Shown here one piece after another: positions 1-24,775 of a stretch of DNA of 24,775 nucleotides. The stretch's first letter is position 1; each line of letters begins with the position of its first letter. The DNA comes from a virus, in IMG/VR virus record IMGVR_UViG_3300032282_000540, positions 1 to 24,775 of that record. One strand, written 5' to 3'. The position numbers and the translations under genes are program-made. The notes under the pieces were generated by a model that had not been told where the DNA came from, did not search any database, and saw only the letters and a list, made by a program, of their open reading frames with translations.

Positions 1-216
1 AATCCCGGAGCAGGTAAAAACTTTATTAACATTTTAGATGGCAAAGATGGTTACCGACAGATTCACGGCAAAAAAGATGGCCGTTTAATTTTACGAGCAG
101 TAGAAAAAGACCAAGGCAAATTTAGACGAAATATCATAAGCGGCGTTGAAAGAGCAATGGTGAGATGTCAAGAGCGCATGAACATTACCGATACTTTTGG
201 GGGTTCAAATGGCTAA
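1..216 (+). CDS. gp10-like minor tail/connector protein, 3' part only
   Basis: The reading frame is open from base 1 and stops with TAA at 214-216, so only the last 71 residues are present. The tail of the protein (NPGAGKNFINIL near its start, GRLILRAVEKDQGK later) matches the C-terminus of the gene at 14855-15472 (NPQAGSQFINAL and GRLIFRAWAEDQGK), which sits in the same place just before a tape measure gene. That gene looks like the HK97 gp10 family of small head-tail/tail-completion proteins. The stop overlaps the tape measure start (ATGGCTAA). Assignment to the family is by the paralogue and by position. Confidence 0.75.
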   Translation, partial: NPGAGKNFINILDGKDGYRQIHGKKDGRLILRAVEKDQGKFRRNIISGVERAMVRCQERMNITDTFGGSNG

Positions 217-1996
217 TGGTGTTGTATTTGATTTTTTTACCCGGGTAGATACCAAAGCGTTAAAAAAAGGCACTAAAGAAATAAATCATTTTGCATCGGG
301 AGTTAAAAAACTTGGAGTAACCATAGGTGCCGCTTTTGCAGCACAAAAAATAATTGCATTTGGTAAAGCATCACTTTCCGCGTTTGTGGCCGATGACAAA
401 GCGGCAAAGATACTTGCCAAGTCATTAGATAATCTTGGACTATCTTATGCCAACCCCGAGGTTAAAAACTTTATTTCAAATCTTGAAACTCAAACCGGTG
501 TACTTGATGACAAACTCAGACCGGCATTTCAAAAGTTAGTTACTACTACGGCTGATTGGCGTAAGTCTCAAGACTTATTAAAAACCGCTTTAGATTTAAG
601 CGCAATGAGTGGTTCGGATGTAGTGAGCGTTGCCGATGATTTGGCTAGAGCATACTCAGGTAATACAAAAGGATTATTAAAGTACGGCATAGGCTTAAGT
701 AAAACTCAACTTCAGGCAATGTCATTTGATGACATATTAAAACAAATTGCTAAAGTTTCAAGTGGCCAAGCGCAAACCGCCGCTGATAGTTATGCGGGAA
801 GTTTAGATAAACTCAATGTTGCCGCCAAAAACGCTCAAGAAACTATTGGTAAAGGTTTAGTACAGGCACTTACTGAAGTTGGTGGGGCTAATGGTTTTGA
901 AGGTGCCTTGGCTGGCATAAATGCTTTTTCTTCAGGAATTGCCGATGCAATCATTGGTACAGGGCGTTTAATCAAAATCATTGGTATTTTCCGAGAGAGT
1001 AAAGGCGGTTTTGCCGGGGCTTACAGAGAGGTTGCGGCGTTTAACAAAGCCAATGCGCGTTCGGATATGTTGAGCCGGCAGCAATTTGGTGGACCGGCGG
1101 CGGAAAAATATAAGGCGGCTGCCGACAAAGCGGCTGAATTGAAGTTATTAAAAAATGCAAATGCCTTACGGGCTATTGAAAACAAATCATTATTTGATAA
1201 ACTCCAAGCATCTAAAGACCAAAAGATTTTAGATGATTTGAAAAAGCGTAATGATGTTGAACGCATAGGTTTGGAATATGCGCTAACTCAAGCAACTACT
1301 GAGAGCGCGCGCCTATCTATTAAATCTCAGTTAGACATAATGGATGGCAATGCCAAGGCTGCCGCTGAAGATTTGGCCGCGCAAGTAAAAATGGCTACCG
1401 ATAAAGCCGCTGCCGAACAAAGAGCGCAAGAACGGCTCGATGCAACTACTAAAGCATTTGAAGCATTAAATATAAACACAAAAGCATTAACCGCCACAAT
1501 TGACCCATTAGGCATTGCCTTTACAAGTTTGGCAATTGCTACCGATGCACTTTCAACTACACTAATGGATAAAATTAAAGCACTCAATGAAGGCGAAACG
1601 CACGCTGCGGCAGTGGTCAGACCGCCTTATGTATCACCTTTTAATCCATCATTAAGTGCTTTTGGTGGAAAATTGCCCGCGCCAAGTACAAGTCATCATG
1701 ATTTTGGTACAGACGGTGGAGATATGGGGCCAATTAACGGTACAGGCACAGATGGCGGCGGCAAAACATATTCAGTGGTTGCAGGTGCAGTAGATGAAGT
1801 TCAATCAATTGTTGATTATTGGGCCGAACAAACCGCATTGACCTTAGCGGCTATGGCTGACAATATCGCCAACACTCCAATTGAATTACAAATTTATGGT
1901 GATTTGAATGATTACGGTTTCCAATATGCAGTTCAACGGGCTAACCAAGCCAATGCGCGAGCAGGGGTTTCAATCTCAGGTACAGCGAGCACCTAA
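209..1996 (+). CDS. Tail tape measure protein (unit 1)
   Basis: 595 residues from ATG 209; a TTG at 199 in the same frame is possible, but the GGGGG at 199-203 serves well as ribosome binding site for the ATG. The N-terminal ~210 residues (DDKAAKILAKSLDNLGLSY, GLLKYGIGLSKTQLQAMSFDDI, AAKNAQETIGKGL) are strongly similar to the second tape measure at 15472. They are followed by a charged Ala/Lys-rich, probably coiled-coil region at about 270-420 and a Gly/Ser/Pro-rich C-terminal part. This protein would set tail length; at about 0.15 nm per residue it predicts a tail near 90 nm. It is joined to the next gene by TAATG. The composition is richer in GCC and ACC codons than the unit 2 homologue. 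Confidence 0.9.
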   Translation: MANGVVFDFFTRVDTKALKKGTKEINHFASGVKKLGVTIGAAFAAQKIIAFGKASLSAFVADDKAAKILAKSLDNLGLSYANPEVKNFISNLETQTGVLDDKLRPAFQKLVTTTADWRKSQDLLKTALDLSAMSGSDVVSVADDLARAYSGNTKGLLKYGIGLSKTQLQAMSFDDILKQIAKVSSGQAQTAADSYAGSLDKLNVAAKNAQETIGKGLVQALTEVGGANGFEGALAGINAFSSGIADAIIGTGRLIKIIGIFRESKGGFAGAYREVAAFNKANARSDMLSRQQFGGPAAEKYKAAADKAAELKLLKNANALRAIENKSLFDKLQASKDQKILDDLKKRNDVERIGLEYALTQATTESARLSIKSQLDIMDGNAKAAAEDLAAQVKMATDKAAAEQRAQERLDATTKAFEALNINTKALTATIDPLGIAFTSLAIATDALSTTLMDKIKALNEGETHAAAVVRPPYVSPFNPSLSAFGGKLPAPSTSHHDFGTDGGDMGPINGTGTDGGGKTYSVVAGAVDEVQSIVDYWAEQTALTLAAMADNIANTPIELQIYGDLNDYGFQYAVQRANQANARAGVSISGTAST

Positions 1997-3237
1997 TGGC
2001 CATTCCAGTAATCAATGCCATAATTAACTTCTCAACAGGTCCAGGCTTTGCTCAAGCCATGATTTTAGACCAGGGCGTTTTGGGTACAAATGTATTGGCA
2101 GATGCGGCTTCAGTAATTGTAGATGTGTCAGATGTAATTGATAGAATTTCAACTGTACGCGGTCGCAACATAACTGCCGACCAATTCCAAACTGGCACTC
2201 TCTCACTTCGCATTGTTGACCAAAACGGAAATTTCAACCCCGAAAACCCATTGTCACCGTACGCAGGTTTGTTATCTCCAATGCGTAAAATTACAATAAC
2301 AGCCACCTATGACACCGTGACTTACCCAATTTTTGCCGGCTACATAACAAGTTACCAATATGTAATACCAAGTAACACAATGGATACCATTGGATACACC
2401 ACCATTACTGCCGTGGATGCTTTCCGGTTGGCTAACCTTGCAAACATCACTACCGTCACAGGTGCAACCGCTGGAGATTTAACTGGTACCCGTATCAATC
2501 AAATACTGGACCAAATCTCATGGCCGGCCACAATGCGTGATATTGATGCAGGTTTGACTACTTGCCAAACCGACCCCGGCACTTCTCGCACTTCACTTGG
2601 CGCAATGCAAACCGTTGAAACTACCGAGTATGGGGCTTTATATGTATCCGCATCCGGGTCATTTGTATTTCAGGACAGGCAAGTAACTTCAACCTCGGTA
2701 GCGGCAACACCAACAGTATTTGCAGATGATGGCAGTGGCATAGATTATTACGATGCCAAGTGGAATTTATCTGACATCCTGGTATACAACCAAGCAAACA
2801 TAACCGCAACAGGATTAGCGATGCAGACTGCTACCAACGCGGCTTCAATAGAGCAATATTTTGCTCACACTTATATTGCTTCAGGTTTACTTATGCAGGA
2901 TACCGACACCGCCTTAAACTACGCCCAAGCCTATGTTGCATCCCACGCTCAAACTGCAATTAGATGCGACCAACTTACGCTTGATTTGTACACGGCCAAT
3001 TATGATTTGGGAATTAAAGCCGCTCTAGGTTTAGATTTTTTTGACCCGGTAAGTATTCAAACCAGTCAACCTGGTGGCACCTCAATCAGTAAAATTGAAC
3101 AAATTTTTGGCGTTGCCATGGACATAACACCGGGAACATGGCGCGTTAACTTCGTGACAATGGAGCCTATTCTGGATTCATTTATACTAAACTCAACTTT
3201 ATACGGAATTTTAGATACATCCGTATTAAGTTATTAA
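1996..3237 (+). CDS. Minor tail protein (distal tail/baseplate-like), unit 1
   Basis: 413 residues. It starts inside the TAATG joint with the tape measure gene. It is homologous along its whole length to 17130-18353: both share an ILDQ/EGVLGTNVLAD motif near residue 25-35, a NPxxPLSPYAGLLxPxRKI stretch near 80-95, and an almost identical C-terminus ending STLYGILDTSV. The position directly after the tape measure and the beta-rich sequence fit a distal tail or tail-tip protein that links the tube to the fibre. The exact family (Dit-like or hub-like) cannot be settled from sequence reading. A purine-rich ribosome site (AAGGAGCAGGG) for the next gene follows its stop. Confidence 0.75.
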   Translation: MAIPVINAIINFSTGPGFAQAMILDQGVLGTNVLADAASVIVDVSDVIDRISTVRGRNITADQFQTGTLSLRIVDQNGNFNPENPLSPYAGLLSPMRKITITATYDTVTYPIFAGYITSYQYVIPSNTMDTIGYTTITAVDAFRLANLANITTVTGATAGDLTGTRINQILDQISWPATMRDIDAGLTTCQTDPGTSRTSLGAMQTVETTEYGALYVSASGSFVFQDRQVTSTSVAATPTVFADDGSGIDYYDAKWNLSDILVYNQANITATGLAMQTATNAASIEQYFAHTYIASGLLMQDTDTALNYAQAYVASHAQTAIRCDQLTLDLYTANYDLGIKAALGLDFFDPVSIQTSQPGGTSISKIEQIFGVAMDITPGTWRVNFVTMEPILDSFILNSTLYGILDTSVLSY

Positions 3238-3249
3238 GGAGCAGGGAAC

Positions 3250-4356
3250 ATGGCCAAACAAACCTATACCGTTGGGCAGGTTCTAACTGCCGCCCAAATG
3301 ACAACACTGCAAACTAACGATTACAACCAAACCGTAAGCGCAAAGGTAGCGAGTTATGTGCTAGTGGCCGCAGATGCCGGCACTCGCATTACGATGAACA
3401 ATGCTGGGGCCACAACAATTACTGTAAATACCGCATTGTTTACCGCCGGGGATACCTTAATAATTACAAACATTGGTGCAGGTATTTGTACTATAACTGC
3501 CGGCACTGCAACTGTATCCACCGCAGGTTCACTTGCATTAAATCAATATGACAGCGGCACTTTATATTTTACAAGTACAGGTGTATCAATCTGGAATGGA
3601 GCAAACCCGGGTGACATAACCGGTGTGACTGCCGGTACTGGCATTTCAGGCGGGGGCACATCGGGTGCTGTAACCGTTACTAACTCAATGGCAACTGCAA
3701 TAACAACTAACGGCGATTTACTTTATGGCACAGGTTCGGGTACATTCTCACGCCTTGGCATTGGCTCATCTGCGCAAGTGTTAACTGTGAGCGGTGGAAT
3801 ACCAGCATGGAGCACACCGTCAAGCGGCGGCATGACTTTAATTTCAACTGTAGTGCCAAGTGCATCAACTGGATTTTCTTTTAGTTCTATTTCAGGTTCA
3901 TACAAACATTTGTTACTTACTTGGGATGGCATTTTACATTCTAATAACTCAACCGCTTTTGATGTGCGCTTAAATGCCAACTCTGGAGCCAATTACAATT
4001 CAATGGTTTATTACGGCGCAAACACAACATTGACCCAAGCCAACGCGGGCGGTGCTACTTCATACAATCCGACCGTACCGGTATTTGGTAAGAATGTCGC
4101 GAACGCTGGATTTAATAACACAAACAGCGGTTATCTTTGGCTCTACGATTATGCAAACACTTCATACGCAAAACAATGTTCTGGCGCGTGGATGTTTTAC
4201 GATTCAAGCGCGGCGGCACATACTCAAATTTGGAATAGTCAAATGACCTTTGACATATTAACCGCAATTAGTTCAATAGATATAACTCGTTTATCGGGTA
4301 CTGGCACAATGACAATAACAACAAATGGAAGCGTTAAGTTATGGGGTATGGCGTAA
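3250..4356 (+). CDS. Tail fibre / receptor-binding protein (unit 1)
   Basis: 368 residues, preceded by AAGGAGCAGGG. The first ~120 residues (MAKQTYTVGQVLTAAQMT, ASYVLVAADAGT, TITVNTALFTAGDTL, TAGSLALNQ) are close to those of 18364-19263, and then the two proteins part. Residues ~125-200 are Gly/Thr/Ser-rich repeats typical of fibre shafts (GTGISGGGTSGAVTVTN, TTNGDLLYGTGSGTFSRLG). The C-terminal ~170 residues have no counterpart in the second fibre and look like a beta-rich lectin-type head. The conserved N-terminus would dock on the tail tip and the variable end would bind the host surface. The binding role is inferred from position and this pattern. Confidence 0.8.
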   Translation: MAKQTYTVGQVLTAAQMTTLQTNDYNQTVSAKVASYVLVAADAGTRITMNNAGATTITVNTALFTAGDTLIITNIGAGICTITAGTATVSTAGSLALNQYDSGTLYFTSTGVSIWNGANPGDITGVTAGTGISGGGTSGAVTVTNSMATAITTNGDLLYGTGSGTFSRLGIGSSAQVLTVSGGIPAWSTPSSGGMTLISTVVPSASTGFSFSSISGSYKHLLLTWDGILHSNNSTAFDVRLNANSGANYNSMVYYGANTTLTQANAGGATSYNPTVPVFGKNVANAGFNNTNSGYLWLYDYANTSYAKQCSGAWMFYDSSAAAHTQIWNSQMTFDILTAISSIDITRLSGTGTMTITTNGSVKLWGMA

Positions 4357-4565
4357 TGAAAACAATTATAAACTGCAAAACAGGCGAAGTAATCGAAAGA
4401 GAATTAAACGCCGATGAAATAAAACAACAAACAACAGACGAGAAAGAGTACGCCAATGTGCAAAAAGTTGAGGCTGACAAATTAACAGTTAAGCAATCAG
4501 CACAGGCAAAACTTGCTGCATTGGGATTGACTGCGGATGAAATAGCGGCAATATCAAATGCCTAG
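4356..4565 (+). CDS. Small charged protein after the fibre gene (unit 1)
   Basis: 69 residues from ATG 4356, which overlaps the fibre stop (TAATG); an in-frame start at 4341 lies inside the fibre gene and is less likely. It is acidic and lysine-rich with a probable coiled coil, and ends in KLAALGLTADEIAAISNA. A gene with the same kind of C-terminus (LLKRLGITAEEAALLLS) follows the unit 2 fibre at 19265, so the two are likely orthologues despite diverged N-termini. The place suggests a fibre-associated or fibre-assembly protein, but nothing in the sequence proves it. I do not recognise a named family. Confidence 0.7.
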   Translation: MKTIINCKTGEVIERELNADEIKQQTTDEKEYANVQKVEADKLTVKQSAQAKLAALGLTADEIAAISNA

Positions 4566-4812
4566 TACCGCGCAGAAAACCGTTACAACCACCGCAACGC
4601 TATTGGTGGCCGCTAATCGTGGCGACCAAATAGTGAACTTGCATAATTCAGGTGGCGCGCTATACATAGGTGATGCAACCGTTACTACATCAACGGGTTT
4701 CAAAATGGATACAAACGATAAACTTGAAATTCCATTGGGTGATAATGAAGCCCTTTATGGCATCGTTGCATCGGGTACTAGCACCGTGTATGTAATGGCC
4801 ACCATCAATTGA
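4558..4812 (+). CDS. Small beta-rich probable virion protein (unit 1)
   Basis: 84 residues with a repeating Thr/Val/Gly pattern (TVTTTATLLVAANRGDQIV, GALYIGDATVTTSTGFKMD, VASGTSTVYVMA). It is homologous to 20075-20329 (TVTTTRSVVVADD, GTLYLGGADVTVANGYRMDNGDK). The start overlaps the previous gene and its TGA overlaps the TTG start of the endolysin. Small all-beta proteins like this are often decoration, fibre-tip or baseplate proteins, but the function here is unknown. In unit 2 the homologue lies after the endolysin and holin-like genes, not before them, so the gene has moved relative to the lysis genes. Confidence 0.75.
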   Translation: MPSTAQKTVTTTATLLVAANRGDQIVNLHNSGGALYIGDATVTTSTGFKMDTNDKLEIPLGDNEALYGIVASGTSTVYVMATIN

Positions 4813-5297
4813 TTACTAGCCAAAACGGGTGGCCAGCATCTAAAGACCCACATGAGATTGGCGTAAAGCAATACGCCATTGCCGATTCGGGCGTTAAATT
4901 ACGATGCGCGGAAAAGGTTGCACCATTATTGGTTGCCTTTGCTTCGCAATTTCATGAGCACATTGAAGCCATAAATGATGGAAATGACGATTGGGGTTAC
5001 TGTTACCGCGAGATTCGTGGGAGTCAAACAGTGCTTAGCAATCATTCAAGCGGTACGGCCATTGACCTTAATGCAACAAAACATCCATTGGGTGCCGCCG
5101 GTACTTTTACGCCATTGCAGGTCACATTGATTCAAGCATTATGTAAAAAATATGGCATTCGATGGGGTGGAGATTACAAAGGCAGAAAAGATGAGATGCA
5201 CTTCGAGATTTCACTTGATGAAGCGAAAGTCGCTGCATTGATTGGAAAATTGGGCCTATCAACTAACAAGGAGAAAACCAATGAAAAAATCACTTGA
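4809..5297 (+). CDS. Endolysin, M15 (VanY-like) zinc peptidase
   Basis: 162 residues starting at TTG 4809, inside the TTGA joint with the preceding gene. This start is chosen because the N-terminal SQNGWPAS motif is typical of M15 endolysins and no in-frame ATG precedes it. Zinc-site residues are visible: SNHSSGTAIDLN supplies His79 and Asp86, and DEMHFEI supplies His131. Peptidases of this family cut the peptide stems of peptidoglycan. The protein has no signal peptide and no separate wall-binding domain, so release would need the membrane proteins encoded next. The end overlaps the holin-like gene by 17 bases. The unit 2 endolysin is a different type. Confidence 0.9.
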   Translation: MITSQNGWPASKDPHEIGVKQYAIADSGVKLRCAEKVAPLLVAFASQFHEHIEAINDGNDDWGYCYREIRGSQTVLSNHSSGTAIDLNATKHPLGAAGTFTPLQVTLIQALCKKYGIRWGGDYKGRKDEMHFEISLDEAKVAALIGKLGLSTNKEKTNEKIT

Positions 5298-5475
5298 GGC
5301 ATTAAAAAAACCTGCAATGTCATGGCTTCGGGCAAGCATCGCCGGTGTTGGAGCATTGTATTTATCCGGGATTTCAGACCCAAAGATTTTGGCCAATGCC
5401 GCGATTGCCGGGTTTATTGGGCCAGTATTAAAGGCCTTAGATGTACCCGCAATTGCTGGAAAGGCAAAAAAGTAA
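5281..5475 (+). CDS. Holin-like small membrane protein (unit 1)
   Basis: 64 residues from ATG 5281, placed 8 bases after an AAGGAG ribosome site (5269-5274); an in-frame start at 5242 would lie well inside the endolysin. A positively charged N-terminus (MKKSLEALKKP) is followed by one or two hydrophobic stretches (about 13-29 and 36-52) and a lysine-rich tail (AGKAKK). The gene overlaps the endolysin, the usual place for a holin. The holin role is inferred from size, membrane segments and position, with no family motif recognised. Confidence 0.7.
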   Translation: MKKSLEALKKPAMSWLRASIAGVGALYLSGISDPKILANAAIAGFIGPVLKALDVPAIAGKAKK

Positions 5476-5476
5476 A

Positions 5477-5698
5477 ATGACCATAACCTCATGGGCGGGC
5501 TTGATTGTGGCCTTAACGGCCATTGTCGGCTCGTTCGTGGGGTGTGTGGGTTGGTTAGTCAAGCATTACCTAAGCGAACTTAAACCCGATGGTAATGGCG
5601 GGCATAACCTCGAGGGAAGGATTGCCCGCCTTGAGGGTCGAATTGATGCAATTTATAGCCTACTTTTGACCCGCGACACACCGAACAGAGACTATTGA
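5477..5698 (+). CDS. Membrane protein with C-terminal coiled coil, possible second holin
   Basis: 73 residues from ATG 5477, two bases after the previous stop. It has one strong membrane segment (about residues 5-28, AGLIVALTAIVGSFVGCVGWLV) and then a soluble heptad-like tail (LEGRIARLEGRIDAIYSLLLTR). The end of the tail matches a 49-residue protein at 20326-20475 (RVDEIYNILLER), so both units keep it. The topology resembles the single-pass holin or holin partner proteins found beside actinophage endolysins. Function is inferred. Confidence 0.7.
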   Translation: MTITSWAGLIVALTAIVGSFVGCVGWLVKHYLSELKPDGNGGHNLEGRIARLEGRIDAIYSLLLTRDTPNRDY

Positions 5699-5722
5699 CA
5701 AAGAACGGTAATGGCGTATTCT
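5695..5722 (+). promoter_or_regulatory. Candidate sigma-70 promoter for the unit 1 early-type block
   Basis: TTGACA at 5695-5700, then 16 bases, then TATTCT at 5717-5722. It sits in one of the few gaps in unit 1, exactly where tail/lysis genes end and the HTH-containing block begins. The predicted transcript leader (about 5725-5749) can fold AGT-ATGC with GCAT-ACT, with one bulged T, just ahead of the GGAAAGGG ribosome site of the next gene. The -10 box matches only 4 of 6 positions. Confidence 0.45.
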
Positions 5723-5764
5723 TCAGTTATGCACCAAAAGGCGCATACTAGGAAAGGGCCTCAA

Positions 5765-5932
5765 ATGTCAGCAACAAAAAATGAATTATGCAGGATTCAA
5801 GAGGGTTTAAGGTTAGCCGGTCAGAATTTATTGATTGCTTCAGAATTAGATGATGGCGATTTAATTGAAGCAATTTTAGTAAACACACTTGCATCATTGC
5901 CGAGTTACTTAGATGCTGTGGTCGGTAACTAA
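5765..5932 (+). CDS. Small acidic protein, first gene of unit 1 early-type block
   Basis: 55 residues from ATG 5765, preceded by GGAAAGGG at 5751-5758; a longer frame from 5711 would remove the leader and lacks a ribosome site. The protein is acidic and leucine-rich with a predicted helical hairpin (IQEGLRLAGQNLLIASELDD, then IEAILVNTLASLPSYLDAVVGN). It heads a run of overlapping genes that continues to HNH. No family is recognised and unit 2 has no clear counterpart. Confidence 0.6.
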   Translation: MSATKNELCRIQEGLRLAGQNLLIASELDDGDLIEAILVNTLASLPSYLDAVVGN

Positions 5933-6114
5933 TGAGAGCATTTAACGGATTATTAACCACTGAAGATGCAGCCTGGGTTTTAGGTGTTGCAGGTTCGACA
6001 GTGCGAAAACTGGTACGAGAAGGCAAACTCCCACATAAAACCACATTTGGTGGACACTACCGTTTTGAATTAGCGGTTATTGAAGCCTTTGCGGCTGAAC
6101 GGGAGAAAAAATAA
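5932..6114 (+). CDS. Excisionase-type (MerR-like) helix-turn-helix protein 1
   Basis: 60 residues. It starts within a TAATG joint. The sequence LLTTEDAAWVLGVAGSTVRKLVREGKLP followed by a short wing (HKTTFGGHYRF) is the pattern of the small HTH_17/excisionase family: helix-turn-helix at about 8-27, beta wing at 30-44, then a short C-terminal helix. Such proteins bend DNA as excisionases or act as small transcription regulators. With no integrase in sight, a regulatory or replication role is more likely. Unit 2 has no equivalent. Confidence 0.8.
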   Translation: MRAFNGLLTTEDAAWVLGVAGSTVRKLVREGKLPHKTTFGGHYRFELAVIEAFAAEREKK

Positions 6115-6302
6115 TGTATCAATTACTCGCACAAATACCGCAACCAATTTGGGTCATTATTTTGTTTGCTTTGATGACCTTGCCAGTTTATGTGGCGTAT
6201 GTTGTAGCCAATGAGCGCGGTTTAGATGATGGCTTTAGGGCAGGTTATGACTTAGGCAAACGCCAAGTAAATGTAACCGATACAAAGCGGGGCAATCAAT
6301 GA
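6114..6302 (+). CDS. Small single-pass membrane protein (unit 1)
   Basis: 62 residues starting in a TAATG joint after GGGAG. One membrane segment (about residues 11-32, IWVIILFALMTLPVYVAYVV) is followed by a charged tail with the pattern GFRAGYDLGKRQ. A 51-residue protein at 21872-22027 in unit 2 has the same plan and a similar motif (GKREGYIAGR), so the two may be orthologues. The function is unknown; it lies between two HTH genes rather than in the lysis block. Confidence 0.65.
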   Translation: MYQLLAQIPQPIWVIILFALMTLPVYVAYVVANERGLDDGFRAGYDLGKRQVNVTDTKRGNQ

Positions 6303-6487
6303 ATCAAAATACAGAGATTCCAAAACTGTACAAAATTGATGAAGTTATGGAGATTCTTGGTTTAAGCCGGTCAATGATAAACCGATTGACGGCCGATAAA
6401 TCATTGGGGTTTGTCAAAATTGGCAAATCTTTGCGTTTTACCAATGCTCAAATTAACGATTTTGTGCAAACATTGGAGCAATCATGA
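6299..6487 (+). CDS. Excisionase-type helix-turn-helix protein 2
   Basis: 62 residues, overlapping its neighbour by ATGA. KLYKIDEVMEILGLSRSMINRLTADKSL is a helix-turn-helix of the HTH_17/AlpA-like family, followed by the wing GFVKIGKSLRFTNAQI. It is paralogous in fold to the protein at 5932-6114 but not close in sequence. Two small HTH proteins in one block suggest a regulatory pair, or an excisionase-like architectural pair. No operator can be assigned with certainty; the GTTATCAAA repeats at 7916-7946 are a possible target. Confidence 0.8.
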   Translation: MNQNTEIPKLYKIDEVMEILGLSRSMINRLTADKSLGFVKIGKSLRFTNAQINDFVQTLEQS

Positions 6488-10178: not shown

Positions 10179-10186
10179 GTTGGTGT

Positions 10187-13905: not shown

Positions 13906-13908
13906 ACA

Positions 13909-14007: not shown

Positions 14008-14010
14008 ATA

Positions 14011-14430: not shown

Positions 14431-14458
14431 TCTAAACAACTAAAAGAAAAGGGCTAAA

Positions 14459-18353: not shown

Positions 18354-18363
18354 GGGGCAATAA

Positions 18364-19263
18364 ATGGCAAAACAAACGTTCACGACAGGGCAAGTACTGA
18401 CTGCTGCCCAGATGACCTCACTTCAACAGACAGCAATGGGCGGCGGTGCGGCAGTAACTAAGACCGCTTCATACGTTCTAGTAGCAGCTGACGCTGGAAC
18501 AACTATTCAAATGAATAGTGCAAGCCCAACAACAATTACAGTTAATACAGCTTTGTTTGCAGCTGGAGATGTTGTATTTATTCAAAACATTGGCGCAGGA
18601 ACTTGTACAGTTACCGCTGGAACAGCAACAGTTACTACTGCCGGTTCATTGGCATTGACCCAATGGGAAGGCGGCCAGTTATATTTTACTAGCACTAGCG
18701 CGTCTATATTCTTTGATTATATTCAAGCTGGAACTTCAATCCCATTAACTACTAAAGGCGATTTGTTTGGCTTTGACACCGCTAACGCCAGAATTCCTAT
18801 CGGCACAAACAACCAAGTACTAACCGCTGATAGCGCACAAGCATTAGGGCTTAAATGGGCAACCCCGTCTTCTTCTCCTACAAGTGCTAACTCAACAGTA
18901 AACACAGGAGAAAGTACAACTTCCTTCACCTATAACAATTTAACAACAACTCAAAGCGTAACGCTTACAACAGGCACAAAGGCTCTAGTCATAATTGGAG
19001 CATCAGTTTACGCATCTTCTGGCACTAACTCAGCGGCTTGTATGACTTACGCAGTATCGGGCGCAACAACAATTGCGGCCTCAGATACACCAGCTTGCAA
19101 AATAATGACTATTGCTGGTGAAACTGTTGCGGCTTCTAAAGCAAGTGTTGTGACCCTTACTGCTGGTTCTAATACTTTTACAATGAAATTTGCTAACGGC
19201 AACAATACAAATACAACAGTTTTTAATTATCGTTCAATGACAGTAATAGATTTGGGGTCATAA
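18364..19263 (+). CDS. Tail fibre / receptor-binding protein (unit 2)
   Basis: 299 residues, ribosome site AAGGGG. The N-terminal ~120 residues match the unit 1 fibre closely (MAKQTFTTGQVLTAAQMT, ASYVLVAADAGTTIQMN, TAGSLALTQ). A short linker with TTKGDLFGFDTANARIPIG follows. The C-terminal ~120 residues (STVNTGESTTSFTYNNLTTTQSVTLTTGTKALVII) form a Thr-rich beta domain that differs from unit 1 and is shorter. The domain break marks a module swap at the host-binding end. Confidence 0.8.
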   Translation: MAKQTFTTGQVLTAAQMTSLQQTAMGGGAAVTKTASYVLVAADAGTTIQMNSASPTTITVNTALFAAGDVVFIQNIGAGTCTVTAGTATVTTAGSLALTQWEGGQLYFTSTSASIFFDYIQAGTSIPLTTKGDLFGFDTANARIPIGTNNQVLTADSAQALGLKWATPSSSPTSANSTVNTGESTTSFTYNNLTTTQSVTLTTGTKALVIIGASVYASSGTNSAACMTYAVSGATTIAASDTPACKIMTIAGETVAASKASVVTLTAGSNTFTMKFANGNNTNTTVFNYRSMTVIDLGS

Positions 19264-19264
19264 A

Positions 19265-19525
19265 ATGGCAATCACAAACAAAAACATAAATCTCTCACAA
19301 CTTGATAAAGAATTAGGCTCACAAGGCTTAATTGCGGATTTTAACAATCCTGATGAGAAACTTATCCTGCCTTGCGAATCATCTAATTTAAGCGAAGCAG
19401 AATTAGAAGCAGGCATCGCAAAACATATCGCAATTGACGATGTTGCAGTTGCCGCAACTGCTAAGGCTGCACTCCTAAAGCGTTTAGGCATTACTGCCGA
19501 AGAAGCAGCCCTGCTTCTATCGTGA
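19265..19525 (+). CDS. Small charged protein after the fibre gene (unit 2)
   Basis: 86 residues; GGGG lies 9 bases upstream. Acidic and Ala/Leu-rich, it ends in KAALLKRLGITAEEAALLLS, which matches the end of the protein at 4356-4565 (LAALGLTADEIAAIS). The N-terminal NLSQLDKELGSQGLIADFNNPDEKLI differs. It may be associated with the fibre, by position only. The stop overlaps the GTG start of the endolysin (GTGA). Confidence 0.7.
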   Translation: MAITNKNINLSQLDKELGSQGLIADFNNPDEKLILPCESSNLSEAELEAGIAKHIAIDDVAVAATAKAALLKRLGITAEEAALLLS

Positions 19526-19947
19526 AACCAAAACTAAGCAAAAGTGCAGTTCAATTACGGCAACAAGTAGATGACTCGTATCCATCTCGTGACCGCCGAA
19601 CTGATGGGTGGATTGGTGACGCTAAGCACGACAGCAAATCAGACCATACGCCTGATGCTTTGGGCTGGGTACGTGCCATTGACATTGACGCCGATTTATC
19701 AAACCACAAATCCGAATCTATTTATCTTGCAAATCAAATTCGTGAATATGCAAAGTCTGATAAAGCTAAACGAATTGCTTACGTTATACATAACAAAAAG
19801 ATTGCTAGTCGAATCCTTAACTGGAAATTCCGCAAATACACCGGAATTAACCCACACACCTCACACATTCACGTCTCTTTCAATAAGGGAGCGGCTGACA
19901 CGAATGATGATTTTTTTGAAATACCTATGCTAGGGGGCAAACAATGA
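19522..19947 (+). CDS. Endolysin, divergent M15-like zinc peptidase
   Basis: 141 residues from GTG 19522. The pattern SDHTPDALGWVRAIDID (His42, Asp54 or Asp56) and the later HTSHIHVSF (His115/His117) give a His-Asp-His zinc site like that of D,D- or L,D-peptidase domains in actinophage lysins. It is not close to the M15 enzyme of unit 1: spacing and surrounding sequence differ. There is no signal peptide and no wall-binding domain. It is followed by an overlapping holin-like gene (ATGA). Confidence 0.8.
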   Translation: MKPKLSKSAVQLRQQVDDSYPSRDRRTDGWIGDAKHDSKSDHTPDALGWVRAIDIDADLSNHKSESIYLANQIREYAKSDKAKRIAYVIHNKKIASRILNWKFRKYTGINPHTSHIHVSFNKGAADTNDDFFEIPMLGGKQ

Positions 19948-20078
19948 AAAATCCTATATTCCTGATGTCAGGTGCGTTCTTGGCTGCTTGGGCAGCTTCT
20001 AATTTCTCCATTGACTATCGTGCAATTCTCTGGGCTATCTTAGCCGGAGTCTTTGGATATGCGACCCCTAAGAAATGA
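19944..20078 (+). CDS. Holin-like 44-residue membrane protein (unit 2)
   Basis: MKNPIFLMSGAFLAAWAASN is followed by FSIDYRAILWAILAGVFGYATPKK. It has two hydrophobic segments (about 5-19 and 25-40) separated by a short polar turn and a basic end, a small class II holin-like plan. It overlaps the endolysin stop by ATGA and the next gene by ATGA. It is the positional equivalent of 5281-5475 but not clearly homologous. The holin call is by place, length and hydrophobicity. Confidence 0.65.
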   Translation: MKNPIFLMSGAFLAAWAASNFSIDYRAILWAILAGVFGYATPKK

Positions 20079-20329
20079 CAATCTCAAGCGCAAACTACAC
20101 GGTAACAACCACACGTTCAGTAGTGGTAGCAGATGACCAAGCTGCTGAGGAAGTCCATTTCCATTCCTCATCAGGCACGTTGTATCTTGGCGGTGCAGAC
20201 GTAACTGTTGCTAATGGATACCGAATGGATAATGGCGATAAAACAGTAATCCAGAATCACGGTAACGCTATCTATGCTGTTACTTCTGCTGGCACATCCA
20301 ACCTATCAACGCTGGTAATTCAGAAGTGA
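20075..20329 (+). CDS. Small beta-rich probable virion protein (unit 2)
   Basis: 84 residues, the same length as its unit 1 homologue at 4558-4812. Shared blocks are TVTTT near the start, GTLYLGG/GALYIGD, VTxxxGYRMDNGDK, and the Ala/Ser/Gly/Thr end. Here it follows the endolysin and holin-like genes. An all-beta virion protein is the best guess. It ends in a GTGA joint with the coiled-coil membrane protein. Confidence 0.75.
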   Translation: MTISSANYTVTTTRSVVVADDQAAEEVHFHSSSGTLYLGGADVTVANGYRMDNGDKTVIQNHGNAIYAVTSAGTSNLSTLVIQK

Positions 20330-20475
20330 ACCAACAAGACTTTTTAACGTTATACATAGCCACAGTTTCTATTATTGGTGGCTTGTCTGGGTATGTAATT
20401 ACGCATTTGCTTGGCGAAATTAAACGCCTAAACTCGCGTGTTGATGAGATTTATAACATACTTTTAGAGCGATAA
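20326..20475 (+). CDS. Membrane protein with C-terminal coiled coil, possible second holin (unit 2)
   Basis: 49 residues from GTG 20326. One membrane segment (about 6-27, FLTLYIATVSIIGGLSGYVITHLL) is followed by GEIKRLNSRVDEIYNILLER, which matches the tail of the unit 1 protein at 5477-5698. The conserved single-pass topology with a coiled coil in both units suggests that it is needed for lysis. The protein is shorter than its unit 1 relative by a Gly/Asn loop. Confidence 0.7.
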   Translation: MNQQDFLTLYIATVSIIGGLSGYVITHLLGEIKRLNSRVDEIYNILLER

Positions 20476-20482
20476 TTTTCCT

Positions 20483-20710
20483 ATGGCGCGCAAAGTTAAA
20501 GTCCAAGACGATACCTACTCTCCATTGGAGATGTATTGCATTGGACTTAATGAGTATTACAAGGCCTTGCGCAAAGCTGGATTCAACGTTGATATATGTA
20601 TGGCAATGATTATGGACAAAGCCTCTTACCCAGATTGGCTTCTTCCTACACCTATTGACTTTGACCCCAATAATCCAAATTTCACTCCCTATGAGGATGA
20701 CGAGGACTAA
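20483..20710 (+). CDS. Acidic protein of unknown function (unit 2)
   Basis: 75 residues. The helical N-terminal half (SPLEMYCIGLNEYYKALRKAGF) leads into MIMDKASYPDWLLPTPIDFDPNNPNF and a strongly acidic end EDDED. I recall similar short proteins with the YPDWLLP and DPNNP blocks in other actinophages, but with no known function. The ribosome site is weak. It lies between the lysis genes and the metallophosphoesterase. Confidence 0.7.
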   Translation: MARKVKVQDDTYSPLEMYCIGLNEYYKALRKAGFNVDICMAMIMDKASYPDWLLPTPIDFDPNNPNFTPYEDDED

Positions 20711-20712
20711 CC

Positions 20713-21447
20713 TTGAAAAAAATCTGCATCGTTCCAGATTTGCAAGTTCCATATCACGATGTAAGAGCCACCAAGACATTATCTAGGTTTATCGCTAAAC
20801 AGAAGTTTGACCAAGTTATCAGCTGTGGCGATGAAATAGATTTACCTCAAATTTCGCGTTGGACAGAGGGCACACCGGGTTGGTATGAACAGACCCTGGC
20901 AGCCGATAGAGACATGGCTGTTGATGTTCTTTACGATTTGCAGGTTACCGACATGATACGCAGTAACCATACAGACCGCCTATACAACGTAATTATGAAA
21001 AAAATCCCTGCTTTTCTATCATTACCTGAACTCAAGTTTGAAAAGTTTATGAAGATGGATGAACTTGGGATTAAGTTCCATAAAGCCCCATTAGAGATAG
21101 CAAAAGATTGGATTGTAATACATGGAGACACAGGTAGCGTAAAGCCTACACCGGGTCTTAGTGGGCTTGAGAACGCCCGTAAAGCGGGTAAAAATGTTAT
21201 CCAAGGACACACCCACAGAGCTGGAATTTCTGCCTTCTCAGAGGCCTCTGGGGGCGTTTTAGGGCGTGTTCTAAAGGGTTATGAAGTGGGACATTTGATG
21301 GATTACAAGAAGGTTTCATATACTGCCAATCCGAACTGGCAACAAGCGTTCTTGGTTGTATATGTAGATAAGAATAAGGTAAGCCCAGTTCTTACATACT
21401 TTGAAAAAGACGGCAGCTTCATATTTGAAGGCAAAGTCTATGGATGA
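20713..21447 (+). CDS. Calcineurin-like metallophosphoesterase
   Basis: 244 residues from TTG 20713, two bases after the previous stop and with GAGG upstream; the TTG gives MKKICIVPDLQVPYHD, the expected first strand. Metal-binding motifs run in order: Asp9 and His14 (DLQVPYH), Gly39-Asp40 (CGDEID), Asn85-His86 (SNHTDR), His137 (IHGDTG) and GHTHR at 165-169. Enzymes of this fold cut phosphoester bonds of nucleotides or DNA. In phages they are linked to DNA processing or to small-molecule signals; the substrate cannot be read here. There is no counterpart in the visible part of unit 1. Confidence 0.88.
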   Translation: MKKICIVPDLQVPYHDVRATKTLSRFIAKQKFDQVISCGDEIDLPQISRWTEGTPGWYEQTLAADRDMAVDVLYDLQVTDMIRSNHTDRLYNVIMKKIPAFLSLPELKFEKFMKMDELGIKFHKAPLEIAKDWIVIHGDTGSVKPTPGLSGLENARKAGKNVIQGHTHRAGISAFSEASGGVLGRVLKGYEVGHLMDYKKVSYTANPNWQQAFLVVYVDKNKVSPVLTYFEKDGSFIFEGKVYG

Positions 21448-21535
21448 GGCTTGTTGCGGCGAGGCTTGGCTTGGATATGACGAGGATTTCGTTATCAAAT
21501 CGTTATACAAATATGCCATTATGAGGTTGATTTAG
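21440..21535 (+). CDS. Possible 31-residue peptide over the GTTATCAAA repeats
   Basis: ATG 21440 overlaps the phosphoesterase stop by 8 bases and has GAAGG about 6 bases upstream. The peptide is MDEACCGEAWLGYDEDFVIK followed by SLYKYAIMRLI. The overlap style and ribosome site match true genes here, but the peptide has no homologue in unit 1 and covers repeat DNA, so it may be chance. Confidence 0.35.
   Translation: MDEACCGEAWLGYDEDFVIKSLYKYAIMRLI
21491..21510 (+). repeat. GTTAT repeat pair (unit 2 copy)
   Basis: GTTATCAAA at 21491-21499 and GTTATACAA at 21502-21510 are 11 bases apart. The 17 bases from 21491 are identical to 7927-7943 in unit 1. They lie in the largest gap of unit 2, just before the early genes. 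Confidence 0.5.
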
Positions 21536-21545
21536 CCTTAATTAA

Positions 21546-21596
21546 GTGCCACCCTTTAGGTGTTGGCGAAGCACAGTAGCCGACAAGAAGGGCTAC
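21546..21596 (+). promoter_or_regulatory. Structured leader with ribosome site in a hairpin loop
   Basis: GTGC (21546-21549) and GCAC (21571-21574) enclose CACC-CTTTA-GGTG (21550-21562). A second hairpin GTAGCC (21576-21581), loop GACAAGAAG, GGCTAC (21591-21596) holds the AAGAAGG ribosome site of the gene at 21600 in and beside its loop. GTTGGC (21562-21567) can instead pair with GCCGAC (21579-21584) and break the second hairpin. The arrangement could control translation. No known riboswitch class is recognised. Confidence 0.45.
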
Positions 21597-21599
21597 AAA

Positions 21600-21872
21600 A
21601 TGGATATCACAGCAGAAGACTTTGAACATTTATTTGAAACTGCTATGGAATGGGATGCTAAAGCTTGGCAAGACCAAGAATTTCGCTTTGACTTTGATGT
21701 TGAAATGCCAACAGGCCACATTTATTGGGTAGAAGATTACTCATCCATGATGCTTTGCCGTCAATTCCTTAATGAACGTGGATTTAATTTCACTAGTTCA
21801 TTCGATGAATCATTAGAACAATGGGCATTTATCTCAGATTATGATTTTCATGCAGCTAGAGTGAGTGCATAA
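21600..21872 (+). CDS. Acidic protein, first gene of unit 2 early block
   Basis: 90 residues from ATG 21600 with AAGAAGG in front; an in-frame GTG at 21546 would consume the structured leader. It is very acidic and aromatic (DITAEDFEHLFETAMEWDAK, EFRFDFDVEMPTG, FDESLEQWAFISDYDF). A DNA-mimic or inhibitor-type protein is conceivable from the charge, but there is no direct evidence. It ends in a TAATG joint. Confidence 0.6.
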   Translation: MDITAEDFEHLFETAMEWDAKAWQDQEFRFDFDVEMPTGHIYWVEDYSSMMLCRQFLNERGFNFTSSFDESLEQWAFISDYDFHAARVSA

Positions 21873-22027
21873 TGGAAGAACTAAATGCTTTGAGTTTGTT
21901 AGTCGCGCTTGTATGTCCAGTATTGGTTGGCTTTGCTTGTTATTGGCAAGGTTTTAACAATGGCAAACGTGAGGGTTACATTGCTGGCCGTTCACTAATG
22001 CGTGTGCCGGTTCGCAATGATAGCTAA
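21872..22027 (+). CDS. Small single-pass membrane protein (unit 2)
   Basis: 51 residues: one membrane segment at about 6-27 (ALSLLVALVCPVLVGFACYW), then the tail NNGKREGYIAGRSLMR. The tail motif GxxxGYxxGR resembles that of 6114-6302 in unit 1. It starts in TAATG and overlaps the next gene by 11 bases. Function unknown. Confidence 0.65.
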   Translation: MEELNALSLLVALVCPVLVGFACYWQGFNNGKREGYIAGRSLMRVPVRNDS

Positions 22028-22298
22028 AGAGATATTACTAAGTGCTACTGATGCAATCGGAGACAGAGGCGCAATTTATGGCCATCCAAGAATTAACCAA
22101 ACCCGAATTGCTTTGCGACTCCAACAGCTCTTTGAAATCCCAATTGCGGATTACCAAGCGTGTCTGGCACTCGTGGAAGTCAAACTCTCAAGAATACAAG
22201 AGAGTCCTCACCATATTGACTCCTACGTTGATGCTTGTGCATATCTCGCACTTGCAGCTGAACTTGCAACAGAGAATGATGACTATATTGCTGACTAA
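22017..22298 (+). CDS. DUF6378-like phage protein
   Basis: 93 residues from ATG 22017 (a GTG at 22002 is also in frame). The pattern RGAIYGHPRINQTRIALRLQQLF, then ADYQACLALVEVKLSRIQESPHHIDSYVDACAYLALAAEL, matches my recollection of the DUF6378 phage family: YG.P motif, K.aR, and HxDSxxDxxxY. The helical plan with acidic residues recalls MazG-like nucleotide pyrophosphohydrolases, which is only a suggestion. The family name should be checked by profile search. Confidence 0.65.
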   Translation: MIAKEILLSATDAIGDRGAIYGHPRINQTRIALRLQQLFEIPIADYQACLALVEVKLSRIQESPHHIDSYVDACAYLALAAELATENDDYIAD

Positions 22299-22551
22299 AG
22301 CAAAACTTGGAATTTGGTGCGATTACTGCAAGAGCAGATTTTCAACTAATTCTATTAAAGGGCAGCAACAAGCTGCTTGGACTGTTCATAGTCAACTTCC
22401 AAAAAGTCATGGGCGTAAGCGTTCTTATTGTAATGACTGTGCGATAGATGTATCTAAGTGGGCTGATGGCTCTTATTTCTCCTTAGACCAACAAATAGAA
22501 TATGCAAAGACAAATGGAAACACTACACAAGGAGTATTAAATGGCTTTTAA
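22276..22551 (+). CDS. Zinc-ribbon protein C (unit 2)
   Basis: 91 residues from ATG 22276 (or 22279). The cysteine pairs are CDYC near residue 15 and CNDC near 53, with a basic loop between (KGQQQAAWTVHSQLPKSHGRKR). The four cysteines predict a zinc site with a long insert. It overlaps both neighbours. A DNA-binding helper role is inferred from charge and neighbours only. Confidence 0.6.
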   Translation: MMTILLTKAKLGIWCDYCKSRFSTNSIKGQQQAAWTVHSQLPKSHGRKRSYCNDCAIDVSKWADGSYFSLDQQIEYAKTNGNTTQGVLNGF

Positions 22552-23197
22552 CCTAGACAATTACGAGACAGTAGAAGTTCGTTTAGAGAAATTTATTTCA
22601 GATTGGCCAGATTTCAGAATTGACACAGAATTGGAGAGTTTTGCTAATGATAGATTTATTGTTAAAGCGTACATATACAGAACTTTTGCGGATGGTGTCG
22701 CGTTCGCAACCGGATACGCTGAAGAGAAGATTTCTGACCGCGGCGTTAATTCGACTAGTGCGCTGGAGAATTGCGAGACTAGCGCGATTGGCCGGGCTCT
22801 TGCAAACGCAGGTTACGCAGCTAAAGGAAAACGCCCTAGCCGAGAAGAAATGGGAAAAGTCGCTAGATTAAAGAATGACATTGCTAGTCAAACCATAGCA
22901 AACGCACCCCTAGCAATTAACAATACATGGGATGAATTTGTAGGAGCTGAACCTAAGCAAGAGATAACAACGCTTGGAGTAGCAGCGGAGTTAGTGCAGC
23001 AATCGTTTGGTGAAGTAACTATCGTTCCAACTTGTATGCATGGAGAACGCGATATAAAGACCGGTATAACAAATGGTAAGTCATGGCAAGGTGCTATGTG
23101 TCCATCTAAGACTTTGCCAAAAGCTCAACAATGCCAAGCAATTTGGTACAAATTAAATAAGGATGGACATTTTCGATTACCTGAGGGGGTGGAATAA
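22541..23197 (+). CDS. Putative ssDNA-annealing/recombination protein with C-terminal zinc site (unit 2)
   Basis: 218 residues, AAGGAG upstream of ATG 22541. The N-terminal ~110 residues contain the diagnostic-looking STSALENCETSAIGRALANA (71-90), preceded by strands FIVKAYIYRTFADGVAFATGYAEE. A linker follows, then a zinc-type site at Cys165-x-His167, Cys187, Cys198 with IWYKLNKDGHF. The same two-part plan is seen at 6484-7143. Annealing or ssDNA binding is my best reading of the N-terminal signature, not a proven family match. Nuclease and zinc-ribbon genes follow. Confidence 0.6.
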   Translation: MAFNLDNYETVEVRLEKFISDWPDFRIDTELESFANDRFIVKAYIYRTFADGVAFATGYAEEKISDRGVNSTSALENCETSAIGRALANAGYAAKGKRPSREEMGKVARLKNDIASQTIANAPLAINNTWDEFVGAEPKQEITTLGVAAELVQQSFGEVTIVPTCMHGERDIKTGITNGKSWQGAMCPSKTLPKAQQCQAIWYKLNKDGHFRLPEGVE

Positions 23198-23371
23198 ATG
23201 GGATATGTTGAAATAATAAGACCAGACGGCACAACAACTTTGCTGGGAGATGTGCCGGTTCTGATATGTCAAATGTGTAACGAAATGCCTCACATGGATA
23301 CTACTGTGAGGGTGCAAAGTATAACTCCAATTCAATGGCAATGCGAGAAGTGCCACGCTGTCAATGGCTAA
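23198..23371 (+). CDS. Zinc-ribbon protein D (unit 2)
   Basis: 57 residues. The N-terminal strands YVEIIRPDGTTTLLGDVPVL lead into CQMC (24-27) and a later CEKC (50-53). The compact form is that of a rubredoxin-like or ribbon zinc knuckle. It starts after the annealing-like gene's TAA and overlaps the nuclease start by 8 bases. It corresponds by length and place to the unit 1 zinc ribbons. Confidence 0.65.
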   Translation: MGYVEIIRPDGTTTLLGDVPVLICQMCNEMPHMDTTVRVQSITPIQWQCEKCHAVNG

Positions 23372-23768
23372 TCACCGCAAACACAGAGGCTACAAGACAC
23401 AATCTGTTGTAGCTGAGTGGTTAAAACAATGGTATCCCTACGCTGAGTCCACAGGGGCAGGTAGACAGGGCGAAGATATAACAGGGATACCATTCTCAAT
23501 AGAAGTTAAAGCTCGTTCAGACTTCTCGCCACTCGCTTGGATTAAACAAGCTGAGACTAATAAAGGTGATAAACTTGCCTTTGTCGTTTCAAGATGCAAC
23601 GGCCAAGGAGAAGATGCGGGGCAGTATTTAGCCTTTATGCGCCTAGGGGATTTGATGAATATCCTACAAACTTATGCAGCTAACCAAGAACCCAAAAGAT
23701 GTACACAATGTGGTTCGTGGATTAACACAATGTGTCGCACGTGCCAGATAGGTGGGATAAATGCCTAG
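23364..23768 (+). CDS. Holliday-junction-resolvase-like nuclease with zinc knuckle
   Basis: 134 residues. GYKTQSVVAEWLKQWYPYAES, then GAGRQGEDITGIPFSIEVKAR, then WIKQAE gives the PD-(D/E)XK nuclease core: Glu in VAEW, Asp38-Ile-Thr (EDITG), Glu47-x-Lys49 (EVK), and a Gln in the next helix. Archaeal Hjc-type and phage resolvases have this order. The C-terminus adds CTQC and CRTC, a zinc knuckle absent from the unit 1 nuclease. It may resolve branched or concatemeric DNA before packaging. Confidence 0.75.
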   Translation: MANHRKHRGYKTQSVVAEWLKQWYPYAESTGAGRQGEDITGIPFSIEVKARSDFSPLAWIKQAETNKGDKLAFVVSRCNGQGEDAGQYLAFMRLGDLMNILQTYAANQEPKRCTQCGSWINTMCRTCQIGGINA

Positions 23769-23925
23769 ATATGATTACGGCTGCGACTTATGTGCAGTTA
23801 TATACGAGACCACCGACAATCCTGAATCCATCCAATGTACTTGCGGTGGAACAATGACACGCATTTGGACTGCACCGGCAGTTGTATTCCGTGGGAAGGG
23901 CTTTTACAAGACCGATAACCGATAG
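23761..23925 (+). CDS. FmdB-like zinc-ribbon protein
   Basis: 54 residues. MPRYDYGCDLCAVIYET, then CTCGGTMTRIWTAPAVVFRG and KGFYKTDNR, is the FmdB family pattern: P-Y-Y near the N-terminus, CxxC, CxCGG, and the end FxGxGFYxTD. Short FmdB proteins are common in Actinobacteria; their role is unclear and regulatory naming is historical. It overlaps the nuclease gene by 8 bases. Confidence 0.85.
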   Translation: MPRYDYGCDLCAVIYETTDNPESIQCTCGGTMTRIWTAPAVVFRGKGFYKTDNR

Positions 23926-23933
23926 CCGAAACG

Positions 23934-23948
23934 TCTCACATAGTGAGA
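23934..23948 (+). promoter_or_regulatory. Hairpin between the FmdB-like and lysozyme-like genes
   Basis: TCTCAC-ATA-GTGAGA is a perfect 6-bp stem with a 3-base loop in the 48-base gap. No T tract follows, so a terminator is unlikely; it may be an operator or an mRNA processing/stability stem. The strong AAGGAGA ribosome site follows at 23959-23965. Confidence 0.45.
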
Positions 23949-23973
23949 TGACACGCCGAAGGAGAACGCTCAA

Positions 23974-24402
23974 ATGAATAATGGATTTGACAAGGGCATT
24001 ACACTTAGCTTGCTAGAGTGCCTCAAGCACTCAGCGCAAGCCGCCACGCGGATAGCTTGCGCAGTAGTAAGTGTTGTGGGGATTCTATTATCTGGCTCGG
24101 CTTACGCCTACGCTCCAGTTCACACTCAAATAACAATTAAACAGATTACTCCGAAGATGTATGCAAAAGCCACATTAAGTAAATCTGAATACAAATGCGC
24201 TTTAGAGCTATATACAAAAGAAAGCAATTGGCGGCCTGATGCTAAGAATGGTAATCATTATGGGATACCACAAGGGCGTTCAATATATCTAAAGACTGCT
24301 GACCCAATAGCGCAAGTAAGATGGGGTGTGCGTTACTCTAAGGCTAGGTATAACGGAATGTGTAATGCACTCAAACACTTTAATCGTAAGGGCTGGCACT
24401 AA
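23974..24402 (+). CDS. Secreted lysozyme/transglycosylase-like protein (unit 2)
   Basis: 142 residues with the strong ribosome site AAGGAGA. Residues ~26-47 form a signal-peptide-like segment (ATRIACAVVSVVGILLSGSA, then YAYA) with an AxA cleavage pattern before PVHTQ. The mature part has Glu83 in TKESNWRPDAKNGNHYGIPQG, then DPIAQVRWGVRYSKARYN, and the end HFNRKGWH, the order seen in small actinobacterial SLT/lysozyme-like wall enzymes. Homologue: 7890-8369. As a Sec-exported wall enzyme it would act outside the membrane without a holin. Its 5' coding part contains the conserved nested hairpin. Confidence 0.8.
   Translation: MNNGFDKGITLSLLECLKHSAQAATRIACAVVSVVGILLSGSAYAYAPVHTQITIKQITPKMYAKATLSKSEYKCALELYTKESNWRPDAKNGNHYGIPQGRSIYLKTADPIAQVRWGVRYSKARYNGMCNALKHFNRKGWH
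24007..24062 (+). other. Conserved nested-hairpin element (unit 2 copy)
   Basis: Arm 1 GCTTGC (24008-24013) can pair with arm 2 GCAAGC (24036-24041), enclosing the hairpin GAGTGC-CTCAA-GCACTC (24016-24032). Alternatively arm 2 GCGCAAG (24034-24040) pairs with arm 3 CTTGCGC (24056-24062), enclosing CCGC-CAC-GCGG (24041-24051) and a 3' bulge ATAG. The second form has the same architecture as 8005-8032 in unit 1, with changed but still complementary outer stems. Confidence 0.6.
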
Positions 24403-24710
24403 TGGGTAGTAAGCATCTTGGTAGTTACAAATGGAAGCAACAACGATTGTTGGTGTTGAGACGAGACAATCACATTTGCGCGTATTGTGGAGAAGCAGCT
24501 AACGAAGTAGACCACATACAACCACGAGTATTAGGTGGCACAGATGACCTAGATAACCTTGTTGCTGCTTGTCGAAGATGTAACGCAAGCAAAGGTCGCG
24601 CCTCAGAGGCGCTTTTTTTAGGGCGACAGTCTACCCCCCCTGTCTTTCCTGACCTTTCTCTCCCTGAAATGGACACAAGCCAGCCTGAATCACCCTTTGA
24701 GAAGCCGTAG
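24402..24710 (+). CDS. HNH endonuclease (unit 2)
   Basis: 102 residues, TAATG joint with the lysozyme-like gene. HNH motifs: CAYC (26-29), Asp37-His38 (VDHI), LGGTDDLDNLVAACRRCNASKG with the second zinc cysteines (Cys57, Cys60) and Asn61. It ends in FLGRQSTPPVF and an acidic Pro-rich tail as in unit 1. It presumably works with TerL in cutting at packaging. An intrinsic terminator-like hairpin lies inside its coding region. Confidence 0.92.
   Translation: MGSKHLGSYKWKQQRLLVLRRDNHICAYCGEAANEVDHIQPRVLGGTDDLDNLVAACRRCNASKGRASEALFLGRQSTPPVFPDLSLPEMDTSQPESPFEKP
24598..24619 (+). terminator. Intragenic rho-independent terminator-like hairpin in the HNH gene
   Basis: GCGCC-TCAGA-GGCGC is a 5-bp GC stem with a 5-base loop, extendable by TC/GA within the loop, followed directly by seven T. 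It is 100 bases before the next terL. In unit 1 the T7 run is kept (8579-8585) but no stable stem precedes it. Confidence 0.6.
24632..24647 (+). promoter_or_regulatory. Conserved C7 block upstream of terL (unit 2/3 junction copy)
   Basis: Identical over 16 bases to 8598-8613, with the same 14-base spacing from the T7 run and about 73 bases before the terL start. Candidate cos or terminase-recognition DNA, or simply conserved coding for TPPVF. Confidence 0.35.
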
Positions 24711-24719
24711 AAGGCCGTT

Positions 24720-24775
24720 ATGAGCGATGTTGATGCGAAGGTAATACCAATCAAACGAGGGGCAAAACAAAAGCC
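24720..24775 (+). CDS. terL: Terminase large subunit of a third unit, 5' fragment
   Basis: ATG 24720 with AAGG 6 bases upstream. Only 18 codons are inside the window: MSDVDAKVIPIKRGAKQK. The KRGAK(Q/K)K stretch, the position right after HNH and the spacing match the terL start at 8694 (PVKRGAKKK). The call rests on synteny and this short motif. It shows that the phage-unit order repeats again beyond the window. Confidence 0.7.
   Translation, partial: MSDVDAKVIPIKRGAKQK

Follow-up and report, generated by a model that had tools for sequence, protein, structure and literature searches.

Closest described phages and cohesive ends

According to Kavagutti et al. 2019 (PMC6802176), tailed freshwater 'miniphages' of ~15 kb are abundant, and some of them were assigned to Actinobacteria. 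The phages described here are alike in the ~15 kb size class, in being tailed and in their freshwater origin, a likeness of description. A shared cos, a split HNH gene or mixed concatemers were not found in the passages covered. Identical or similar cohesive ends that anneal and ligate are also known for the lambda-like phages lambda, 434, phi80, 21 and N15, and even mismatched ends still circularise and are ligated (PMC4669245). The ends of lambda are 12-nt 5' extensions, whereas a 13-nt 3' overhang is deduced for the present phages. In the literature on mixed cohesive-end concatemers or a cos-spanning gene, nothing direct was found.

The window, i.e. the whole stretch of DNA that was analysed, is a linear-classed IMG/VR record; it has 24,775 bp, no Ns and a GC content of ~42%. 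The nearest cultured phages were Arthrobacter Decurrovirus (15.5 kb), Arthrobacter Atraxavirus (14.9 kb) and Curtobacterium phage Penoan (15.3 kb) with 30-41% identity. They resemble the present phages in genome size and in a portal with ~31% identity; Decurro and Atraxa also share the order terL, portal, protease/capsid fusion, tail and lysis genes, with an HNH gene at the right end. The hallmarks of a small actinophage of the Decurrovirus/Atraxavirus type (15-17 kb, protease-capsid fusion, right-end HNH) were all found. In contrast, the three cultured groups carry extra genes ahead of terL and other terminal sequences, and their HNH gene, which reads through the cos here, leaves 27 bp to the right end in Decurro and 23 bp in Atraxa. 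No cultured phage gave a megablast match for the whole window, and amino-acid identities of 30-40% place the phages outside the genera Decurrovirus and Atraxavirus.

Relatives of the TerL lie in a MAG of an uncultured actinobacterium and in a Nanopelagicales MAG, placements that may be binning errors. The host may tentatively be sought among freshwater Actinobacteria (acI / Nanopelagicales), with which the GC content is compatible.

Composition of the window

The window consists of pieces from three ~16 kb freshwater phages that differ from each other, joined end to end at short sticky ends common to the whole phage group, and is most likely no new kind of genome. The three head-to-tail pieces are called U1, U2 and U3. 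U2 is a complete genome of 16,034 bp from cos to cos, and the evidence for U3 is limited to 128 bp. All recognised genes lie on the + strand.

1-8613, +: U1, clade-C miniphage, right arm from tape measure to HNH, by its 94-96% nucleotide identity to contig L092
197-1996, +: tape measure protein of U1, homolog of 15472-17130
1996-3237, +: minor tail protein of U1 (phrog_5313; 96% to L092)
4809-5297, +: endolysin of U1 (phrog_1512)
7890-8369, +: transglycosylase-like protein of U1 (phrog_12661, weak)
8614-24647, +: U2, complete clade-A miniphage genome, by clade-A collinearity and the spacing of the cos cores
8694-10136, +: terminase large subunit of U2 (phrog_9, E=2e-64)
10187-11311, +: portal protein of U2 (phrog_12; 31% to Arthrobacter Decurrovirus portals)
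11235-12824, +: capsid maturation protease-major capsid fusion of U2 (phrog_2263/80; Arthrobacter 'major capsid and protease fusion protein')
14011-14430, +: major tail protein of U2 (phrog_4574)
15472-17130, +: tape measure protein of U2, by position and relatives (36% to 197-1996; without family match)
17130-18353, +: minor tail protein of U2 (phrog_5313; 50% to 1996-3237)
20713-21447, +: metallophosphoesterase of U2 (phrog_221)
22541-23197, +: gp49-like protein of U2 (Pfam PF25690, score under the family cutoff)
23364-23768, +: Holliday junction resolvase-like nuclease of U2 (phrog_244, E=4e-15)
23974-24402, +: transglycosylase-like protein of U2 (phrog_12661, E=6e-16)
24648-24775, +: U3, 128 bp from the left end of a clade-B miniphage, by identity to L044, L048, L054 and L055
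24720-24775, +: first 56 bp of terL of U3, with the start ATGAGCGATGTT as in clade-B contigs

The gene set from tail to HNH is present twice in equal order, with a single complete head module (terL, portal, protease-capsid fusion) in between. Protein identities between U1 and U2 were 36% for the tape measure, 50% for the minor tail protein, 51% (partial) for the fibre-like protein, 28% for the gp49-like protein, 48% for the transglycosylase and 50% for HNH. The longest exact match between both units was 17 bp. In the gene and family search of the window, which is a contig fragment, neither a host gene nor an integrase was recognised.

The original prediction, made from this DNA alone, had described duplicated modules in one repeating order and small phage genomes of three kinds in head-to-tail arrangement instead of a concatemer of one phage. 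Gene and family annotation confirmed the modules, and the comparison with outside relatives upheld the three genomes. Its ~16 kb repeat also stands, but the units border on each other at the cos cores (8600-8613 and 24634-24647) and not at the terL starts. Its third unit represents a real lineage, of which only the short left end with the start of terL is present. Two lysis blocks had been named as well; in the comparison of U1 with U2 they had no homologous endolysin in common.

Assignment to three lineages

U1 matched contig L092 with 92-97% nucleotide identity, and the TerL of L092 was only 54% identical to that of U2. U2 was collinear with about 40 clade-A contigs (L003-L042; the longest ~16 kb) at about 77-80%. 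U3 was 88-94% identical to the left ends of the four clade-B contigs, whose TerL shares about 68-69% with the TerL of U2. By these comparisons, U1, U2 and U3 were shown to belong to three lineages and not to be repeats of one. A circular genome of two phages (C-A-C-A) was considered as well and rejected, as U3 belongs to clade B and U1 to clade C.

Elsewhere, right arms like that of U1 carry a clade-C TerL (L092, L445, L422). Right arms like that of U2 carry a clade-A TerL in at least seven other contigs and never one of clade B, and clade-B left ends are normally preceded by a B-type right arm (L250, L507, L508, L509). Since the arms of each clade pair with their own kind elsewhere, the C/A and the A/B joint are both foreign.

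The cos core

Both joints fall on the 14-mer CCCCCCCTGTCTTT, 73-81 bp upstream of terL.

8600-8613, +: cos core 1 (CCCCCCCTGTCTTT), joint U1/U2, by the pile-up of relatives' contig ends; joint also in L002; putative 13-nt 3' overhang 8601-8613
24634-24647, +: cos core 2, joint U2/U3, by the contig-end pile-up; joint 100% identical in L172; putative overhang 24635-24647

The 14-mer is present in more than 100 IMG/VR contigs, and a scan for the core plus a downstream motif gave at least 119 stretches. Among the contigs beginning or ending near the core, 46 started exactly one base past CCCCCCCTGTCTTT and 12 ended exactly past its first C, with few at each other position. Hence the genome ends are fixed and sequence-specific and lie within a conserved core, as expected for phages of the cos type. 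As the core is absent from both contig ends, a cos with the 13-nt 3' overhang CCCCCCTGTCTTT, which would be removed by end repair, is the most straightforward reading. With the shared cos, missed by the original prediction, both the position of the joints and the reason for them are explained.

The left ends of L022 and L043 carry GATCT/CCGATCT, which is Illumina adapter-like, directly ahead of the pile-up base. Positions 1-7 of the Decurro genome (L491, KT355471) read CCGATCT, also like an Illumina adapter end, which may be chance. Core variants occur in relatives, e.g. CCCCCCTGACTCT in L422 and CCCCCCTGTTTCT in L445; further minority variants were seen in L425, L432, L448, L481, L485 and L456. 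A run of six to seven T is almost always present shortly ahead of the core (window 8579-8599) and is possibly part of the packaging site. Decurro and Atraxa have a similar T-run close to their right ends.

An HNH gene divided by the cos

HNH proteins of other phages assist the terminase during cos cutting. In the window, an HNH frame runs through each core.

8356-8694, +: HNH endonuclease through cos 1 (Pfam HNH, 3e-10), frame open across the cos; start 8356 presumed; the listed ORF is 8167-8694, with the HNH domain at its residues 93-134
24402-24710, +: HNH endonuclease of U2 through cos 2 (Pfam HNH, 2e-13), its tail from 24648 on U3

The HNH frame was open through the core in 114 of the 117 joints with enough flank; for the other two frames this was the case in 0/117 and 1/117. 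In the HNH frame the core codes for TPPVF, followed by a tail of about 19-39 codons. In most clades the tail varied most at third codon positions, as for translated sequence (variable sites by codon position 6/6/15 in clade A and 20/10/24 in a group of 45 sequences); one group of four did not follow this bias, and in another it was weak. The open frame together with the third-position bias indicates that the cos cut lies within the HNH gene. At cos 1 the last 26 codons (8614-8691) sit on U2. By this frame, the HNH domain receives the tail of another phage wherever a joint is foreign, which applies to both joints of the window. By analogy with the other phages, the HNH protein may take part in cos cutting with the terminase.

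Recurrence of the joints and other joined contigs

Contig L002 (3300034198_002290) repeats 5425-12421 with 99.97% identity and two differences (6826, 7812) and includes the C/A joint. Contig L172 (3300034198_000357) repeats 20105-24736 at 100% and includes the A/B joint.

For 115 joints, TerL identity on the left and HNH identity on the right were correlated (Spearman 0.52), so that most of them look native. HNH identity alone was too coarse for the classing of single joints; wider right arms were compared instead. Eleven relatives close on themselves at 97-100% (L352, L496, L497, L501, L333, L334, L335, L353, L355, L357, L363) and six continue into a relative at 67-92% (L326, G026, G027, L351, L336, L350); only relatives long enough for self-overlap were covered, and due to this length selection the ratio is no estimate of frequency. 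In L326 the successive left arms were 67% identical. L506 probably also changes phage at the core. The run shared between successive joints was 16 bp in L326, as at the joints of the window, and 44, 76 and 75 bp in G026, G027 and L351, respectively.

Two candidates for foreign joints were rejected: L497 (the contig of L402) is self-closing over 123 bp at 100%, and in L468 the whole arm is native and the HNH alone differs.

Mosaics of arms were observed as well. The right arm of L497 was 92% identical to that of L416 and its TerL only 63%, and the right arms of L360 and of L207, L186 and L218 were 83-88% identical with a TerL identity of only 56-57%. Judged from these contigs, arm exchange between lineages is a real natural process.

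The actinobacterial MAG bin UppL4_bin-798 holds two different miniphage contigs, L499 and L500 (C56, C145), whose HNH domains are near-identical and whose tails differ, with the same cos core in both.

Origin of the joints

The joints were probably formed by ligation of distinct miniphages with identical sticky ends, either in vitro or during co-infection. The units would derive from different freshwater miniphages with a common cos, as linear genomes or as end fragments. The C/A joint would then combine a C phage's right end with an A phage's left end, and the A/B joint the right end of A with a B phage's left end, the annealed ends being ligated in library preparation or in a co-infected cell ahead of replication. 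We infer this source from the sharp mapping of the cos by contig ends with both joints on that core, from the mismatched arm lineages together with a shared run below k-mer size, and from the six further contigs that also change phage at the core. Some points count against ligation. The ligated molecules were deduced from assembled contigs, L092 ends before the cos core, so that the native core of U1 is not seen there, and the long shared runs of G026, G027 and L351 could reflect assembly walks. Plain k-mer misassembly at the conserved cos may thus apply to some multi-unit contigs, but for the window it is quite improbable: the 16 bp shared at its joints are shorter than assembler k-mers (21 or more), and joint-crossing reads or molecules probably existed in the libraries. 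The original prediction was right that no shared stretch above ~20 bases occurs and that short-read k-mers could not join the units. An assembly path via natural recombinants (C right arm with A left arm, A right arm with B left arm) that share arms with phage A is somewhat less improbable, as arm mosaics like L497 and L360 are real. It needs, however, two recombinants that were not seen, both with arms almost identical to those of a single A phage, and these arms are paired in no other contig. Least probable of all is that several phage genomes stably persist as a tandem array or in fused form, either integrated or as an episome. The unbroken contig and the second contig set with the same joints would fit, but the window holds no integrase or host DNA, the order C-A-B is not periodic, many monomeric relatives of the arms exist, their arms pair natively elsewhere, and the eleven self-closing relatives are of ~16 kb. 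Thus, among the origins proposed originally, the tandem array in a host finds no support, whereas co-replicating sister phages and a cloning or long-read chimera both fit cos ligation.

The partners bear on the place of ligation, in vitro or in a cell, but do not decide it. Random in vitro ligation is expected to give several partners per right end and a break of the contig, but both joints were assembled through. If B left ends were the commonest, chance in vitro should also have joined the C right end to B, and A often to A. Furthermore, the same two joints are unlikely to arise in two independent libraries, so their recurrence in 3300034198 would argue against pure in vitro chance; this argument is void if the same reads underlie both contig sets. 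With independent samples the recurrence would fit persistent molecules, formed where the ends of multiple miniphages in one cell annealed crosswise and were sealed by host ligase. Mixed concatemers of this kind would be cut back to monomers by the terminase. This in vivo form of ligation is possible, but clearly less probable than ligation as such: the natural arm exchange seen in L497 speaks for it, whereas direct evidence of co-infection is lacking, three partners in one contig equally fit random in vitro ligation, and self-circularisation is normally favoured.

Implications

Multi-phage contigs in public collections of virus sequences would be accounted for by such ligation at a common cos, and a contig joined at cos does not equal one genome. 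For an abundant uncultured phage group a shared cos is now mapped, and its packaging site cuts a nuclease gene in two. If the joints form in cells, they would offer a simple route of arm exchange between phage lineages. It is a rather doubtful extension that freshwater miniphages of many lineages keep one sticky end, that co-infection routinely yields mixed concatemers, and that one further crossover swaps whole arms, the HNH tail changing with the partner. If true, this would be a community-wide sticky-end system of genome shuffling, in which the gene of the HNH packaging nuclease is completed only by the joint.
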